DNA of 41,734 nt from contig JAISFO010000034.1 in the NCBI GenBank assembly GCA_031263535.1, forward strand, positions 1 to 41,734, written 5' to 3'. Shown in pieces: positions 227 to 41,551 of the stretch (within the stretch, counting starts at the first letter, position 1; each line of letters begins with the position of its first letter). A program made the translations under genes and the position numbers. This DNA comes from Holosporales bacterium. Its GTDB lineage: Bacteria > Pseudomonadota > Alphaproteobacteria > UBA3830 > JAIRWN01. The notes under the pieces are model-generated. The model was given only the letters and a program-made list of their open reading frames with translations. It was not told where the DNA came from and ran no database searches.

Positions 227-269
227 ATTCGACCAGCAAAATCTACTGTGCCAGGGGATTTGTTGCAAT

Positions 270-1277
270 CTAAAAATAGAACTCTAAGGTACGTTTTATG
301 GCCTCAGTAAGCCCGGTCACAGGCTGCCAGTTAAGATACTTTTTGGCGTTTTCGATCGACGGTACCCGGTGATTGGTGTCCTGATAAGACCCTCCGTAAT
401 AATCATTGCCTGGCACAGAGATAATCTTTGTTCGCGACGCCTTATCCTTCAATTGCGGAACGGTAACGGCAACCTCTAACAGCTTCTCAGCCAGCTCGGC
501 AATTGAGTATCTTTCATGCGGGTTGCCTATATTGAATATCCTGCCTTTGGCGCAGTCGTCTTTGTTTTCTATAATTTTCATCAAGGCAGACACGCCGTCA
601 TCAATGTAAGTGAAGCAGCGCTGCTGTTTTCCTCCATCGACCAGCTTAATTTCACCGTCATAAAGGATGTTGCTTATAAACTGACTAAGCGCGCGCGATC
701 CGCCTTCTTTTTGCTTACCAATAGAATCAAGCCTGGGGCCGATCCAGTTGAATGGACGAAATAAAGTATAACTAAGTCCATCCCTGATTCCATAAGCATA
801 TATCACGCGGTCAAGTAGCTGCTTGCAGCAGGAGTATATCCACCGCTGTTTGTTGATAGGACCTACGATAAGGTTGGACTCTTCTTCCTTGAACTCTGAG
901 TCCTGGCACATGCCGTAAACCTCGGAAGTAGACGGGAAAATGATGCGCTTTTTATATTTGGCTGCCAGTTTGATTACTTCAAGATTGGCGGCAAAATCCA
1001 AATCAAATACGCGTAAGGGGTCGCTGACATAGGTCGCTGGAGTAGCGATGGCCACCAAAGGCAAGACAACGTCGCATTTTTTAATATGATACTCAATCCA
1101 TTCTTTGTGTATGGTTATGTCGCCCTCCTGAAAGGTAAGGCGTGGATGGGAAAGGTAATCTTTAAGCCAATTGCACCTTAGGTCCATGCCATAAAGCTGC
1201 CAGTCGGTGTCCTTAAGGGCCTTTTCTGTCAGCGTGCTGCCGATAAAGCCGTTAATACCAAGTATCAAAACCTTCAT
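270..1277 (-). CDS. arnA: UDP-glucuronate decarboxylase, ArnA dehydrogenase half only
   Basis: This 335-residue protein matches the C-terminal half of E. coli ArnA, which oxidatively decarboxylates UDP-glucuronate to UDP-Ara4O in the cytoplasm. The Rossmann motif GINGFIG lies at residues 7-13. The catalytic STSE is at 116-119, and the YxxxK pair is Tyr148/Lys152 in WIYSCCKQ. The long conserved stretch through CDVVLPLVAIATP is typical of ArnA rather than of generic epimerases. The N-terminal formyltransferase half of bifunctional ArnA (about 300 residues) is absent, and no separate copy is in the window. AAGGA lies 8 nt before the ATG. It is the last gene of the arn operon, 10 nt after arnC. 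Confidence 0.93.
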   Translation of the reverse strand: MKVLILGINGFIGSTLTEKALKDTDWQLYGMDLRCNWLKDYLSHPRLTFQEGDITIHKEWIEYHIKKCDVVLPLVAIATPATYVSDPLRVFDLDFAANLEVIKLAAKYKKRIIFPSTSEVYGMCQDSEFKEEESNLIVGPINKQRWIYSCCKQLLDRVIYAYGIRDGLSYTLFRPFNWIGPRLDSIGKQKEGGSRALSQFISNILYDGEIKLVDGGKQQRCFTYIDDGVSALMKIIENKDDCAKGRIFNIGNPHERYSIAELAEKLLEVAVTVPQLKDKASRTKIISVPGNDYYGGSYQDTNHRVPSIENAKKYLNWQPVTGLTEAIKRTLEFYF

Positions 1278-8169: not shown

Positions 8170-9732
8170 TTAGGCGCCAAACACACGGTCTATTTCGCTT
8201 TGATCTGTAACGCCTTTGTCCTTAAGACTTAGGGCGAAGCTCATCATGCTGTCAAAGTATGTGCATATTACGCCGGCAAATGCTTTCATTTCAAAATTTG
8301 GCTGAACCATAATTCTTCTTACATCATCGTTTATAATAAGTAGTTCTGGTATAGCTGCACGTCCTGAATACCCAGATCCATGGCAAGCGGCGCAATCTTG
8401 GCCGCCCTTTTGACAATTTTGGCACAGCTTTCGCAAAAGGCGTTGAGACATCACGCCTACTAAGCAACACGACAAATCGTGCAGGGTTACCCCTAAATCC
8501 ATCAGCCTAGGGAAAACGCCTAGTATATCGACAGAGTGAATAGTCGCCATAACTAACCTTCCGGTTAAGGCTGCCCTCACCGCCATCGCGGCAGTGTTTT
8601 CATCCCTGATTTCCCCTATTAATATAACGTCAGGGTCTTGTCGTAGAATCGATCTTATACCTTCCGCAAACGTCAATATTCCTTCCTCGCGTAGGTCTAA
8701 TTGACGCAGTCCTGGCATTTGGTATTCCACCGGATCTTCAAGCGTCATGATGTTAAGCTTCTTGCCCTTCAGTTCATGTATCAAAGCATAAAGTGTTGTC
8801 GTCTTACCGGCCCCAGTTGGCCCAGCGATGATAAACAGCCCAGAAGGCTTGAAAATGATACGCTTTAAAGCCGCGGTTATATCATCCGGAAAGCCTAGCT
8901 TTGATAAAGACAGCAAGTCGTTATTAAGATCCAACAACCTTACCACAACCGCCTCGCCAAACACGCTGGGGTGTGTGGCTATGCGTAAGTTGACGCTGCG
9001 GTTACTTAAGATAACGTTAGCGTGACCACTTTGGGGCATGCGGCATTCAGTAATATTAAGGTTGCCCAAAACCTTGATCCTTCCTTTGATTTGCGGCCAG
9101 GATTCTATGTGTATCTCTTTGTATAGAGCAAGAATGCCGTCTATTCGTACTCGTATGCGAACTACATCTTGCAATGGCTCAAAGTGAATGTCGCTGGCAT
9201 TATTCTTCGATGCATATACCAAGATTTCATCCACAGTTTTTGATGCATTTTTATGACTAAGCTTTAAGTACCTGGCACGCTGACCATCAAGCGCGTGTTT
9301 TATTTGCGCCGTTGATGCGCAAAAGAACTTAACAGATCTGTCGGGCAAAAGCTGTTCGATTTCATTTTTGGCAACTACATTTCCAGGATCGGACAGCGCT
9401 ATGCACACAGCGTCGTATTCAAAAGCAAAAGCAACCGCCTGATGCCTACGCGCAAGCGGCTCTGTCAATATGCATGACGATTCATCATCTATAGGTTGCT
9501 TATCCAGGTCAACAAACGGCAACCCAAAATACCGAGCAGTTGCTTTGGTCAGCCGAGGCTCATCAATGAAGCCAAGCTTAACCGCCAAATCCCCGAACAA
9601 CTGGCCTTCTTTCTTCTGTTCAAGCAAGATGGCGTCAACCTGATCCTGCCTTATAAGGTCCCACTCAACCAAACACTGCCCAAATCTGTCCCAAGTTATG
9701 TAAGGTGTGTGGGCGGCCTTTTCAGCGCTCAT
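8170..9732 (-). CDS. GspE/PilB-family secretion or pilus-assembly ATPase
   Basis: This 520-residue ATPase would drive a type II secretion or type IV pilus machine from the cytoplasm. An MshEN-like N-terminal domain (about 20-150) precedes the ATPase core. Walker A GPTGAGKT is at 304-311. An arginine-rich Asp box follows (LRQDPDVILIGEIRDENTA), then the His box (MATIHSVD). A four-cysteine zinc site near residues 430-450 (CQNC, then CAAC) is typical of GspE and PilB. Its ATG overlaps the stop of the prepilin peptidase frame in ATGA, so the two are co-translated. No pilin, secretin or inner-membrane platform gene is in the window, so GspE and PilB cannot be told apart. Confidence 0.9.
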   Translation of the reverse strand: MSAEKAAHTPYITWDRFGQCLVEWDLIRQDQVDAILLEQKKEGQLFGDLAVKLGFIDEPRLTKATARYFGLPFVDLDKQPIDDESSCILTEPLARRHQAVAFAFEYDAVCIALSDPGNVVAKNEIEQLLPDRSVKFFCASTAQIKHALDGQRARYLKLSHKNASKTVDEILVYASKNNASDIHFEPLQDVVRIRVRIDGILALYKEIHIESWPQIKGRIKVLGNLNITECRMPQSGHANVILSNRSVNLRIATHPSVFGEAVVVRLLDLNNDLLSLSKLGFPDDITAALKRIIFKPSGLFIIAGPTGAGKTTTLYALIHELKGKKLNIMTLEDPVEYQMPGLRQLDLREEGILTFAEGIRSILRQDPDVILIGEIRDENTAAMAVRAALTGRLVMATIHSVDILGVFPRLMDLGVTLHDLSCCLVGVMSQRLLRKLCQNCQKGGQDCAACHGSGYSGRAAIPELLIINDDVRRIMVQPNFEMKAFAGVICTYFDSMMSFALSLKDKGVTDQSEIDRVFGA

Positions 9733-10880
9733 AATCGATGGCTGTTTTTAAGAAAATCACAAGCTGTTCTTAAAGCGGTCTGAGTAATAGAATGCCCGAA
9801 GCCTTGCGAAATAATCGCCTTTACCGAAATATTGGCCCTTTTAAGGCAGTTTTCTGCTTTGGTGCAGAATGAAACTGGCACGACCATATCTTGACTGTCG
9901 TGCAAAAGCAAAACCGAGGTTCCTGCGGTATTTTCGCCACCGACTACGCTTTCGTCTAATAATATTCCTGAAAAGCCGATAATGCCGGCTACTTTGCGCT
10001 GTAATCCTATATGCAAAGCCATCATAGCTCCTTGCGAGAAACCGACGAGGTAAAGGTTAGAGTCATCAAGCTTATATTCCTTAAGCAGAGCGTCTATTTT
10101 GGCATTCATTTTTTTGGCCGCTTCATTTATGCCGATTTTCAATTCCTCTAAATCGCCCCAGTCTTTTGACCTGAACCATTGATAGCCTGTCGGATTTTCT
10201 TCACAGGGATCAAAGCCGTCCGGCACAAATACGTCTGCGTCGTCTATCGCATCGGCCATTGCTTGGGCGACCGGCGCAATATTATCCGCATCTGCCCCAT
10301 ACCCATGCATAACAATAATGATTTTTTTAGGCGGTTGGCTTTTTGCTTTTATGTATAAGCAATTAAATTTGTCTTCTTTTTTCATATCGCCTCTTTTACT
10401 AACAAAGTTTATGTCGGTACGATCAGCACTTTTCGCGCAAGCCAGCGAAGGGGTGTAATCCAAGACGCTAAAATTAGCGATAGTTAAGGTCAAAATCAAC
10501 CCTCCGCCTATTGCCGGGGCAAAAGGGAAGACTTTTGATCTGTAGATAAGCGCAAGCAGAACGCCAAAAGCGCCAGTTATAACTAAGAACAAAGGAATAT
10601 TGCCAGGATCCAACCAAACAGAACTTGCAATAAGCATTTTTATATCGCCTCCTCCCAACAGCCAATTTTTGCCAAGATACCTGAACAGCAGAAAGATGAC
10701 AGCTAATGCGGCGGTTACTAATAAGGGTGAAATCAAACCTGCCCAATTGCTTTGTAAATATCTGTAAGTAAGGGCAAGGCCAGCCAACATTAATGTTAAT
10801 ATATTCGGAATTCTGCGTGTTGTTAAATCACAAACCGCCGCACAAACCCAAATAACAGTCAGTAAAATAAAACCCAACAC
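9729..10880 (-). CDS. In-frame prepilin peptidase (A24) plus serine carboxylesterase
   Basis: One uninterrupted 383-codon frame carries two unrelated proteins. Residues 1-140 are a CpaA/TadV-like aspartic prepilin peptidase with several membrane helices and both active-site aspartates (Asp18 in AVCDLTTRRIPN, Asp79 in GGGDIK). Residues 166-383 are a phospholipase/carboxylesterase of the acyl-protein-thioesterase type. Its catalytic serine is in GFSQG, the aspartate in HDSQD and the histidine in FGHS (Ser117, Asp166, His198 counting from Met166). The frame opens with GTG at 10880. Met166 (ATG, 10385-10383) has its own AGAGGCG 2 nt upstream, so the esterase may also be made alone. It is followed by the GspE-type gene with a 4-nt overlap. 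The fused state could be real or a lost stop codon between two genes. Confidence 0.85.
   Translation of the reverse strand: MLGFILLTVIWVCAAVCDLTTRRIPNILTLMLAGLALTYRYLQSNWAGLISPLLVTAALAVIFLLFRYLGKNWLLGGGDIKMLIASSVWLDPGNIPLFLVITGAFGVLLALIYRSKVFPFAPAIGGGLILTLTIANFSVLDYTPSLACAKSADRTDINFVSKRGDMKKEDKFNCLYIKAKSQPPKKIIIVMHGYGADADNIAPVAQAMADAIDDADVFVPDGFDPCEENPTGYQWFRSKDWGDLEELKIGINEAAKKMNAKIDALLKEYKLDDSNLYLVGFSQGAMMALHIGLQRKVAGIIGFSGILLDESVVGGENTAGTSVLLLHDSQDMVVPVSFCTKAENCLKRANISVKAIISQGFGHSITQTALRTACDFLKNSHRL
10388..10394 (-). promoter_or_regulatory. Internal ribosome-binding site before the esterase part
   Basis: AGAGGCG precedes an in-frame ATG at 10385 inside the prepilin peptidase-esterase frame. 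The AGAGG core is 4 nt from the ATG. It is the reason to suspect a separate esterase start. Confidence 0.5.
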
Positions 10881-23588: not shown

Positions 23589-25905
<2,317 letters not shown>

Positions 25906-25913
25906 GTTTTTAC

Positions 25914-28826
25914 ATGGATTATAAATCAACGGTTTTCCTGCCTAATACATCGTTTTCAATGAAAGGTGCTCTGCCAAATAAAGAGCAGGAAATCTTCGAC
26001 CGTTGGGAAAAGACTGGTTTATACCAGAAGATTCGGGCTAAATCTAAAGGCTGGCCAAAGTTTATTCTGCACGACGGCCCTCCATTCGCTAATGGATCGC
26101 CGCATGCAGGCACAGCCTTGAATCGCATTCTTAAGGATGCGGTGATAAAGTTCAAGCAAATGCAGGGATATGACGCTCCGTTTGTACCGGGATGGGACTG
26201 TCACGGCTTACCGATCGAGTGGAAAGTAGCAGAGCAACTTAAGGACGAAAAGCAAGATAAGCCAGATACAATTAAATTTCGCAAGATGTGCCGCGATTTT
26301 GCAAGCTACTGGATCGATGTCCAAAGAAACAGTTTCAAGCGTTTAGGGTCGCTGGGCGATTGGGAAAATCCATACTTAACCATGGATCCCAAAAACGAGG
26401 CGATTATGGTTCGCGAGTTCGGCAAGCTGCTTATGAGCGGGGCCATATATCGCGGCGAGCGACCGGTTTTATGGTCTATAGTTGAAAAAACCGCCCTGGC
26501 CGAAGCTGAGCTTGAGTATAAAGACAAAAAGTCCGCAAGCATATATGTGGCCTTTAAGATCAAAAAGGCTTCGTCGAGCAACCTGCTCGATGCGTCTTGT
26601 GTTATATGGACCACTACGCCTTGGACTTTACCGGGTAACAGGGCGATATCGTTTTCCGATAAAATCAAGTACTTACTTATCTCGGTTAACGGCTGTTTAG
26701 AGGATAGAAACTTAAACACCAAACTGATCATCGCAGAGGAATTGAAAGACAATTTCCTTAAGGATATCGAGGCAAGTGACCATACTGTAATTCGGCAGGT
26801 AAGACACGACGAGCTAAAACAGGTTGTCTGCCAGCATCCTTGGGCAGGAATGGGGTATAACTTTGACGTTGCGTTGATTGACGGCAAGCATGTTACCTCT
26901 GACCCTGGCAGGGGCTCAGGACAGATGGAGCCCAATGACAATGGACCTGATGACTTTTACGATCAACATCCTTGGGCAGGTATGGGATATGATTTTGACA
27001 TACTTTTACTTGAGGGCCAGCACGTAACCGCAGATTCAGGTACTGGCTTGGTTCATACTGCCCCAGGACATGGCTTGGATGACTTTTACGTTTGCAAGAA
27101 ATATGGCGTTCCGGTAGTGCAAACGGTGGACGATGGTGGCTGCTATTACGACTATGTGCCAATATTTGCCGGAAAGCATATCTTTAAGGTAGAGCAGGAT
27201 ATCCTTGATCAACTGCGCAAGCGCCCTGGGACTTTGCTGGCAGCAAAGGAAATATTGCACAGCTATCCTCATTCGTGGCGATCGAAGGCTCCGCTTATAT
27301 ACCGCACAACCAAACAGTGGTTTATAAGTTTGGACAAAACTAATCTACGTGAAAAAGCCCTTAAGGCGATTGAAAATGTAAGATGGCTGCCGAGTCAGGG
27401 GTATAACAGGATAAAATCGTTCGTAAGTTCTCGCGGTGATTGGTGTATATCAAGACAACGCGCTTGGGGTGTGCCTCTGACGATGTTTATCGACAAAAAA
27501 ACTGGCGACATACTAAAGGACCAGTCCGTAATAGACACAACAGCCTCGATAATAGAAAAAGAAGGGACTGACGCTTGGTACAGCCACCCGGCGCAAGATT
27601 TTCTTGGTGATAAATATAAGGCCAGCGATTTTGAGCAAGTATTCGATATAGTCGATGTTTGGCTTGAAAGCGGAAGTACTCATGCCTATGTCCTTAAAAA
27701 CCGCGAAGAACTTGCGTGGCCGGCCGATCTTTACCTTGAGGGCTCGGACCAACATAGGGGGTGGTTTCAAGCGTCGCTTTTACACGCTTGCGCGACTTAT
27801 GACAGCGCTCCATATAAGTCTGTGCTCACGCACGGATTTGTGGTGGATGAGCAGGGCTATAAGATGTCCAAGTCGCTTGGTAACGTTATTGACCCAATGG
27901 ACATTGTTACCAAAAACGGAGCCGATATAATGCGGCTTTGGGCCATCAACAACGAATACACTGAGGATATGAAGTTCGGCCCGACTATTCTTAAGCAGCA
28001 AGAGGATATATACCGACGGATTAGGAATACTTTGCGTTATATGCTGGGCGCGCTGGATCAGTTTGATGATGGTCCGTTTAACTATGATTTGCTGACGGAG
28101 CTGGATAAGTGGGTACTGCACAAAGTCTCATACTTAGATAAGTTTATTCGAGAGCAGGTTGAAACCTTTTCCCTTAACCGTATTGTTACCGAGATTCACA
28201 ATTTTTGCAGCGCCGATTTGTCAGCGTTTTATTTCGATGTAAGAAAAGACTGTTTATATTGTGACGGCGATAACGACCCTAAGCGTAAGGCATATCGTCA
28301 AACTTTATCGATTCTGTTCGAAATTGTTGTTAAATGGCTGGCCCCGATAGTGTCTTTCACAGCAGAGGAAGCTTGGTTGACCAGGCATCCTGAGGCAGAC
28401 AGTATCCATATGCAGGATATGCCGGTAATCCCTGCGCAATGGCATAGCCCAGAACGTGACGCAAAGTGGAAACTGATAAAGGCTTTTCGTGCAACAGCAA
28501 CGGCCGGACTTGAGCGCGCCAGGGAAAACAAAGTAATTGGCTCAAGCCTTCAGGCCAGTGTGATTCTATATGATCCAGAGGCAACTGCTTCTGGTTTAGG
28601 TCTTTCGGCAAAAGATTGGGCTGAGCTGTTTATTACCTCCTCAGTCGATATCAAAAACTCTAAACCTCCGACAGATGCTTATGTTGTAGATGGGGCGATT
28701 TCTTGTGGCATTGAAGTTGTTCCGGCCAATGGCAAGAAATGCCAGCGTTGCTGGAAGGTCTTGCCGGAAGTTGAACAAAATCCTGAAGAGATATGCGACA
28801 GGTGCGCAGCAATACTTCGTGTCTAA
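25914..28826 (+). CDS. ileS: Isoleucyl-tRNA synthetase with duplicated editing segment
   Basis: This 970-residue class Ia synthetase charges tRNA-Ile and hydrolyses mischarged Val-tRNA-Ile. The HIGH element is read as HAGT at residues 64-67, and the KMSKS loop is KMSKSLGN. The C-terminal zinc module has CQRCW and CDRC. The CP1 editing domain contains two adjacent copies of a 44-residue segment starting at His308 and His352. The second copy keeps the conserved GTGLVHTAPGHG core; the first copy is diverged there. This accounts for the length above the usual 930-940 residues. It directly follows atpD and overlaps lspA by 8 nt. Confidence 0.96.
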   Translation: MDYKSTVFLPNTSFSMKGALPNKEQEIFDRWEKTGLYQKIRAKSKGWPKFILHDGPPFANGSPHAGTALNRILKDAVIKFKQMQGYDAPFVPGWDCHGLPIEWKVAEQLKDEKQDKPDTIKFRKMCRDFASYWIDVQRNSFKRLGSLGDWENPYLTMDPKNEAIMVREFGKLLMSGAIYRGERPVLWSIVEKTALAEAELEYKDKKSASIYVAFKIKKASSSNLLDASCVIWTTTPWTLPGNRAISFSDKIKYLLISVNGCLEDRNLNTKLIIAEELKDNFLKDIEASDHTVIRQVRHDELKQVVCQHPWAGMGYNFDVALIDGKHVTSDPGRGSGQMEPNDNGPDDFYDQHPWAGMGYDFDILLLEGQHVTADSGTGLVHTAPGHGLDDFYVCKKYGVPVVQTVDDGGCYYDYVPIFAGKHIFKVEQDILDQLRKRPGTLLAAKEILHSYPHSWRSKAPLIYRTTKQWFISLDKTNLREKALKAIENVRWLPSQGYNRIKSFVSSRGDWCISRQRAWGVPLTMFIDKKTGDILKDQSVIDTTASIIEKEGTDAWYSHPAQDFLGDKYKASDFEQVFDIVDVWLESGSTHAYVLKNREELAWPADLYLEGSDQHRGWFQASLLHACATYDSAPYKSVLTHGFVVDEQGYKMSKSLGNVIDPMDIVTKNGADIMRLWAINNEYTEDMKFGPTILKQQEDIYRRIRNTLRYMLGALDQFDDGPFNYDLLTELDKWVLHKVSYLDKFIREQVETFSLNRIVTEIHNFCSADLSAFYFDVRKDCLYCDGDNDPKRKAYRQTLSILFEIVVKWLAPIVSFTAEEAWLTRHPEADSIHMQDMPVIPAQWHSPERDAKWKLIKAFRATATAGLERARENKVIGSSLQASVILYDPEATASGLGLSAKDWAELFITSSVDIKNSKPPTDAYVVDGAISCGIEVVPANGKKCQRCWKVLPEVEQNPEEICDRCAAILRV
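26835..27098 (+). repeat. Tandem duplication inside ileS (two 132-bp units)
   Basis: Unit 1 is 26835-26966 and unit 2 is 26967-27098. Both begin HPWAGMGY and carry a DDFY near the end, with about 57% identity at protein level by eye. DNA third positions have diverged, so the duplication is not recent. Unit 1 lacks the HTAPGHG editing motif. Confidence 0.88.
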
Positions 28827-31897: not shown

Positions 31898-31965
31898 AGC
31901 TCTTGAATAAACAACAGCATATCTGCGCCTTTGCCAAGCGTCAGGATAAATTTTTTAAAAAAGTG

Positions 31966-31994
31966 TTGACTTCTGAAAAATTTTTTTGTAAACT
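31966..31994 (+). promoter_or_regulatory. Promoter of the orphan secreted protein gene
   Basis: TTGACT (31966-31971) and TAAACT (31989-31994) are 17 nt apart in very A+T-rich DNA. The predicted transcript would start near 32001 and carry a short leader with AGGAG before the ATG at 32029. Confidence 0.65.
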
Positions 31995-32028
31995 ATTAAC
32001 GGTTATTGGAATTTATATAGGAGAAATT

Positions 32029-32718
32029 ATGATTACTAAAAAAACTTTGTTGATTGGTAGTATTGCTTTATTAGGTTTAGGTGGAGCTTTTGATAGTAAC
32101 GCTGCTCTGGACACTGTCCTGTTTGTAGATTTGACATTTACTGATACACAGGGACAAAAGACACGCCAGCATATAACGAATCGAGGCTTTGTAGGTGTCT
32201 TGAAAGACACAGCGGATGAAGCTGTCGGGACTGGTGAAGGAACATATTCAAATTATTTTGATTGTTCTAAGCTTACGCATATGAGGCCATTTGTGGAAAA
32301 AGGCCCACACGGCTTTATGGCAGAATACCATCACTCTTACCTGTCTGATATGATACAACGTTCTCTTGATACGCACTTTGAGCCAGGAACTTTAGGCACA
32401 TTCAATTTTTTATGTGATGTCGCAAATTCGGAAGATAAGAAGGTATATAAGGCGATGCTTCACAATTCATTTGATGAATACTGCATGGGTGATATTTCCG
32501 ATACTCAGTTTTTCATGCAAGTTTATGGAATTCTTTGTCTTTTGGATCCTGGAGAGCCGGAGTTTGGTCGCATTGATTCGTTGATGAAGAAAAGAGATCA
32601 ATCTCAGGAGCACAGTGACATGTGGAGACAAATATTTCAGATATTGCGTCAGTGCAGGCGAGATATGGACAGCGGTCATACGGAAATCGACGGATTATTT
32701 GACGATATGGATGAATAA
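32029..32718 (+). CDS. Orphan secreted acidic protein
   Basis: I do not recognise this 229-residue protein. The first 26 residues are a typical Sec signal peptide (positively charged ITKK, hydrophobic LLIGSIALLGLG, probable cleavage after SNA). The mature part is acidic, rich in Asp, Glu and His, with five cysteines and no membrane helix, and ends in DGLFDDMDE. The frame is open upstream to 31903, but AGGAG lies 8 nt before the ATG at 32029 and the signal peptide begins there. It is a single-gene unit with its own promoter and terminator. Its leader DNA and codon use are richer in A+T than the neighbours. A secreted or periplasmic role in host interaction is possible but unproven. Confidence 0.82.
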   Translation: MITKKTLLIGSIALLGLGGAFDSNAALDTVLFVDLTFTDTQGQKTRQHITNRGFVGVLKDTADEAVGTGEGTYSNYFDCSKLTHMRPFVEKGPHGFMAEYHHSYLSDMIQRSLDTHFEPGTLGTFNFLCDVANSEDKKVYKAMLHNSFDEYCMGDISDTQFFMQVYGILCLLDPGEPEFGRIDSLMKKRDQSQEHSDMWRQIFQILRQCRRDMDSGHTEIDGLFDDMDE

Positions 32719-40933: not shown

Positions 40934-41551
40934 TTAATGCAATACTTCCCCTCCCCCCATTCGCATCACTTCTCTGCCTGGGACGGTGATGTAGGCGGGA
41001 CCTATTCCTCCTTTACAGTTGTAGTTGATAAACCTAGGCAGACGAAGATTGTTCATGTTGCCCGGTATTGTCAGGAACTGCAATCCTACTGAATTAACCA
41101 AGTCCAAATCTGAAAACTTAGAGTCGCCTACATCCAACGTGATCAGTCCTGTCAACCCTGAACAACCTTTTATTTCCGACAGCTCCGTACAACCAGAGGC
41201 ATTAAGCGCAGCAAGATCTGCACATTCTTCAAACTCTAACGTATTCAGCACAGCTAGCCCACTAACGTCTACGTTACTTACACCACTTAGGTCGCTTAAC
41301 TTCAGATAACTCAATCCCACACATCTTTTAAGGTCAAGAAGGTCTTTATGCCCGCTGATGGTCAAACTAGTTATACGTCCAGCCATAGCGGCTATGCTTG
41401 CCATCCGAACCGATTGCCCAACGTTCAACCTAACTTCCACTGCTTGAAATAGAGATAAAAGATTAAGCTTTGACAGTTCATCCTCAGGTTTCAAACCGTA
41501 ATTGCCTGGAGATAAATCTAATGTGAGCGACGAGGTGTCTGTAACGAACAT
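40934..41551 (-). CDS. Leucine-rich-repeat protein, possibly a C-terminal fragment
   Basis: This 205-residue frame has a run of irregular leucine-rich repeats of about 20-23 residues, for example ITSLTISGHKDLLDLK, LSYLKLSDLSGV, LNTLEFEECADL and LITLDVGDSKF. It has no signal peptide or membrane helix. Such proteins are common as host-interacting or secreted proteins in intracellular bacteria, but nothing here proves that. The ATG at 41551 has GAGA close by. The same frame continues upstream through a single TAG into another open frame that leaves the window, so this may be the downstream half of a broken larger gene. Confidence 0.65.
   Translation of the reverse strand: MFVTDTSSLTLDLSPGNYGLKPEDELSKLNLLSLFQAVEVRLNVGQSVRMASIAAMAGRITSLTISGHKDLLDLKRCVGLSYLKLSDLSGVSNVDVSGLAVLNTLEFEECADLAALNASGCTELSEIKGCSGLTGLITLDVGDSKFSDLDLVNSVGLQFLTIPGNMNNLRLPRFINYNCKGGIGPAYITVPGREVMRMGGGEVLH

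Follow-up and report, generated by a model that had tools for sequence, protein, structure and literature searches.

What does a degenerate second copy of the editing segment do in an isoleucyl-tRNA synthetase (IleRS) that keeps an intact one? The question arises from the ileS gene of a Holosporales bacterium, located on a contig of 41,734 nts (hereafter the window; G000:C34) of a draft genome of 0.91 Mb. From the sequence alone, the original prediction had read in the CP1 editing domain a tandem duplication of 44 residues with one degenerate copy, either affecting proofreading or kept as a neutral insertion.

The ileS frame is open from end to end, and its product scores 875.4 bits against the TIGR00392 equivalog cut-off of 621.4, with a C-terminal zinc finger (PF06827) recognized at aa 940-965 (28.7 bits, threshold 21.3). 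Both class I signatures, HAGT (a variant of HIGH) and KMSKS, were found, and the closest solved relative, by sequence and fold alike, is 8c9e, the IleRS1 of P. megaterium. The gene lies between atpD and lspA, gene names other than ileS and atpD (e.g., lspA) having been assigned by reading the translations. The HAGT variant (26103-26114, aa 64-67), in which the second His is replaced by Thr, is also present in many other Holosporales of families f3 and f4, hence it is not genus-specific. It was also observed that ileS is immediately 3′ of atpD (window 25905-25914); a gene matching the F1 epsilon family (atpC) is not at this site but at G000:C23:78105-78326.

The duplication is in-frame and spans 44 codons, with units of 44 and about 41 residues (Table 1). 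At the DNA level, it appears as a direct repeat (26832-26916 and 26964-27048) with a spacing of 132 bp and 72% identity over 85 nts, and an identical 13-mer, GATGACTTTTACG, closes both units. The exact boundary of the insertion is undefined because the repeat is tandem. In the whole window, only one other direct repeat of at least 25 nts with copies no more than 600 bp apart was detected, a 26-nt pair at 31945-32000. Over their first 25 residues, the two units are identical at 17 positions, while the best score in 100 shuffles of the protein, at offsets from 10 to 199, was 11 out of 25. The two units are not equivalent, as had been predicted: the GTGLVHTAPGHG core is lost from unit 1, where GRGSGQMEPNDNG stands instead, and the tested editing residues of this segment are all in unit 2. 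When unit 1 was inspected for a second site, i.e., a GTGxVH core with the His and Asp of the catalytic pocket, it was found to read GRGSGQMEPNDNGPDDF, in which T and H are lost and the DDF end alone is kept. The silent divergence within an open frame was confirmed as well, since 7 of the 17 same-residue codons of the two cores differ.

Table 1. Features of the ileS gene and of its tandem repeat (window coordinates; pN and pS were computed against L008, a member of the same genus)
Feature	Position	Residues	Strand	Remarks
ileS, isoleucyl-tRNA synthetase, bacterial type	25914-28826	970 aa	+	TIGR00392; PF00133, Anticodon_1, zf-FPG_IleRS
Threonine-rich editing motif WTTTPWTLPGN	26607-26639	232-242	+	T233/T235/T238 = E. 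coli T241/T243/T246; present in genus
Unit 1	26835-26966	308-351	+	First copy of tandem repeat
Unit 1 first half, conserved duplicated core, HPWAGMGYNFDVALIDGKHVTSDPG	26835-26909	308-332	+	pN 0.05, pS 0.81; 23/25 residues kept
Unit 1 second half, degenerate ex-catalytic loop, linker-like, RGSGQMEPNDNGPDDFYDQ	26910-26966	333-351	+	pN 0.31
Unit 2, canonical editing segment	26967-27089	352-392	+	Aligns with outgroup single copy; pN 0.011
Unit 2 editing core GTGLVHTAPGHGLDD	27039-27083	includes H381 (= E. coli H333) and D390 (= E. coli D342)	+	H381 and D390 invariant in 45 outgroups; both present in 3/3 genus members

Tandem repeats are a known assembly hazard and the genomes concerned are draft metagenome-assembled genomes, but the probability of an assembly or chimera artefact is negligible given the limited DNA identity of the units and the presence of orthologous units in three separate genome bins: the window genome and its close relatives, the Holosporales MAGs Gsp477_bin58 and Gsp477_bin113 (94% and 79% IleRS identity to the window, respectively). 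The same insert, diverged, in three genomes rules this explanation out. While both units are present in all three members of the genus, the 45 other Holosporales with a match all align solely from query residue 46 onward, i.e., with one unit, the counterpart of unit 2. In the alignment, a clean gap of 44 residues is seen in every outgroup read in the correct frame (the outgroup genes L058 and L059 were left out of this reading). The outgroups thus rule out that unit 1 is an ordinary part of alphaproteobacterial IleRS, and the predicted clade-specificity of the insertion holds.

Sampling was extended to 385 Alphaproteobacteria, 358 of which have a match; among the matches listed, which are the best ones, all but those of the window genome and one congener cover essentially one unit. 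Partial upstream extensions in a few of these matches (e.g., G063, query 15-99) were considered as candidate inserts and rejected, the G063 gene (L050) showing none in the alignment. In 399 Pseudomonadota, no second strong match was found, although the threshold may have been too strict for a duplication in a remote lineage. At the sensitivity used in both samplings, no independent duplication was found outside the genus; two contaminated genomes, G148 and G378, have two matches each. The IleRS tree, computed with unit 1 removed, follows the order: the genus is monophyletic (support 1.0) on a stem of 0.34 substitutions per site, and its sister is family f4 inside Holosporales (support 0.95), which does not have the insert. 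A horizontal origin of ileS finds no support in this tree. Because the insert is present in 3/3 genus members and absent in the 45 other Holosporales and in both samplings, the duplication would have arisen on the genus stem, the simplest account being one duplication followed by vertical inheritance. The insertion was also predicted to be old, in agreement with the diverged units in three species and the near-saturated synonymous sites. No literature on such an IleRS insertion was found. The genus is probably termite-gut-associated because the sample code of two of its genomes, Gsp477, also designates a bin obtained from Glyptotermes, a lower termite (PMC11707648). As a side observation, IMG/VR contigs classed as viral (L060-L076, some longer than 500 kb) also carry IleRS genes, the majority of which are complete and have one copy of the editing motif; these contigs may derive from very large viruses or, through misassignment, from bacteria.

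In E. coli IleRS, Thr241 and Asp342 serve in hydrolysis, Thr246 and His333 reject the cognate product, and the T243R/D342A variant is editing-deficient (PMC9023258). The five corresponding residues (T233, T235, T238, H381 and D390) are present in 3/3 genus members; among the 45 outgroups, T238 is either T or S and the other four are invariant. Hence the native site, in unit 2, is intact, and the enzyme does not belong with the degenerate-editing synthetases, whose own editing site is inactivated. Judging from these residues, the IleRS of the window is predicted to be editing-competent, and proofreading of Val-tRNAIle is expected to be much as usual. A general loss of editing in this genome was also considered and rejected, since its ValRS keeps RPET and PAHDFND and the RPET motif is present in its LeuRS, the gene of which runs off the contig end. 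There is no indication here of the proofreading loss that PMC7373986 describes in other host-restricted organisms.

Selection on the two units was estimated by pairwise codon counts between the window and L008, the most distant species compared. Unit 1 core is close to saturation at silent sites and, with a fourfold divergence of 0.63, its pN is nevertheless well below that of the whole gene (0.129), while the pN of the unit 1 tail exceeds it. In a neutral simulation calibrated on fourfold sites, a mean of 2.9 of the 25 core residues stayed unchanged, with a maximum of 8 in 600 runs, versus 23 observed; that the simulation uses a simple mutation model and one lineage pair should not matter given this margin. 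The tail keeps 10 of 18 residues against a neutral expectation of 1.7, and its length in L008 differs by one residue. Six residues that set unit 1 apart from unit 2 (N316, V319, I322, D323, K325 and P331) are shared by all three species, hence gene conversion from unit 2 alone is no explanation for the conservation. In the first 24 nts, the units within L008 are alike at 23 positions versus 21 between species, which are too few data to claim gene conversion. The low pN and the retention of unit-1-specific residues together indicate strong purifying selection on the first half of unit 1, while the second half, far less constrained and fast-evolving, looks like a linker.

These values weigh heavily against the suggestion that unit 1 is a surface loop without any role, a neutral insertion that a relaxed symbiont genome tolerates. 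The small genome of a host-restricted order (PMC11909080) would suit such tolerance, as would the frequent degeneration of synthetase editing sites in small-genome host-restricted bacteria (Melnikov et al. 2018, as far as summarized in PMC7373986), the fast and length-variable tail, and the AlphaFold2 models described below, in which the extra segment is pushed out at low confidence. However, the core is retained at near-saturated silent divergence, even the tail is kept above neutral expectation, and neither IleRS nor ValRS has lost its editing site. This part of the original prediction is not supported for unit 1 first half: neutrality is largely refuted there and, as an account of the whole insertion, it is improbable.

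In the AlphaFold2 model of the whole enzyme (mean pLDDT of 86), the block containing the unit 2 strand (aa 362-367) reaches about 91, while the extra segment (aa 316-347) is below 50. A CP1-only model agrees, with aa 306-315 fairly confident (block pLDDT of 85) and aa 316-352 extruded. In both models, the editing domain looks normal and is confidently predicted, the unit 2 strand occupies its usual place and the extra segment is extruded. Only three sequences in the AlphaFold2 input cover the extra segment, so that a low pLDDT is expected and is no proof of disorder. The 45 outgroup IleRS have 195 invariant or near-invariant positions; the genus deviates from them at 5, two of which fall within unit 2 (P about 0.05, a weak signal). 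These are the adjacent, genus-specific V363I and P364L of the unit 2 strand; unit 1, too, has lost this Pro. The loss of this Pro and of the V363/P364 pair hints that the packing of the native strand was adjusted. Prolines in edge strands often block further strand pairing. As a conjecture, the loss of Pro from both copies would fit a pairing of the two strands.

The same data bear on the identity of the native strand, since unit 1 first half might occupy the ancestral strand position with unit 2 first half as the extra one, or the two might interchange. The invariant V is kept in unit 1 (V319) and replaced in unit 2 (I363), unit 1 also has the original upstream VC context, the boundaries of a tandem repeat are inherently ambiguous, and the CP1-only model places the start of unit 1 rather than its remainder. 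However, this placement is partly due to MAFFT putting the HP of the outgroups on unit 1, and the unit 2 strand runs directly into the catalytic loop and is confidently modelled, which makes such an exchange unlikely. An effect on proofreading, by which unit 1 would flank the editing pocket and modulate Val-tRNAIle hydrolysis, the rejection of the cognate product Ile-tRNAIle or the way in which the tRNA 3′ end docks, is about equally doubtful. It would be in line with the position of unit 1 immediately before the catalytic segment, with its conserved specific residues and with the replaced V-P pair of unit 2. On the other hand, every tested catalytic and negative-determinant residue is unchanged, and unit 1, which has neither an H333 equivalent nor the GTG loop, cannot provide a second site by known chemistry. 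The bolder proposal, that one symbiont genus recruited a dead tandem copy as a modulator of proofreading or tRNA 3′-end docking, is a shade less probable still.

We consider it probable that this IleRS is editing-competent and carries an add-on that is catalytically dead but structurally retained. A single tandem duplication in ileS, in frame and ~132 bp long, would have reached fixation on the stem of one genus of Holosporales. Unit 2, still joined to the catalytic strand-loop, would have kept the ancestral editing function, while the GTGxVHTAPGHG loop of unit 1 would have decayed into a linker rich in Gly, Ser, Pro, Asn and Asp. Purifying selection would maintain the strand-forming first half (HPWAGMGYNFDVxLIDGKHVTxDPG) as an additional structural element of CP1, probably one more beta-hairpin or edge strand that packs onto the editing domain, and the enzyme would proofread Val-tRNAIle about as usual. 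The duplication, its distribution, the selection pattern and the intact editing residues are direct observations. Against this reading, AlphaFold2 predicts no confident fold for the extra segment, so that the packed hairpin is a candidate structure, and the purifying selection on unit 1 could instead reflect tRNA contact, oligomerization or solubility.

The duplication is genuine, clade-specific and ancient; it is novel as an instance and ordinary as a type of event. In T4 lysozyme, a secondary-structure element was duplicated in tandem by engineering. Here too, a structural element is repeated in frame and either copy could fill the native position, but the repeat is natural, ancient, diverged and located in a beta-rich editing domain. 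Compared with bacterial IleRS with a canonical CP1 (8c9e; 1ffy/1qu2 of S. aureus; E. coli, PMC9023258), the full class Ia architecture, all tested editing residues and the C-terminal zinc finger are alike, with 39% identity to 8c9e in the fold alignment. The differences are the 44-residue tandem duplication before the GTGxVH motif and, relative to alphaproteobacterial IleRS, the change of V-P to I-L in the preceding strand. The degenerate editing domains of synthetases in host-restricted organisms such as Mycoplasma (Li et al. 2011; Melnikov et al. 2018; to the extent covered in PMC7373986) share a small host-associated genome and an editing segment whose catalytic core has degenerated, but here the native editing site persists beside the degenerate copy and no loss of editing is indicated. 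The locus offers a phylogenetically bounded natural case of an internal duplication that survived next to the active centre of an enzyme both essential and highly conserved. It would become testable whether a proofreading segment, once dead, acts only as structural ballast or tunes fidelity, in a host-associated lineage for which PMC7373986 would rather suggest proofreading loss.

Elsewhere in the window, the ORFs at 31903-32718 (+) and 40934-41551 (-) have no Pfam match. The ORF at 9729-10880 (-) combines a prepilin peptidase domain (Peptidase_A24, aa 6-111) with a phospholipase/carboxylesterase domain (Abhydrolase_2, aa 174-380), and is either a gene fusion or two genes sharing one open frame.
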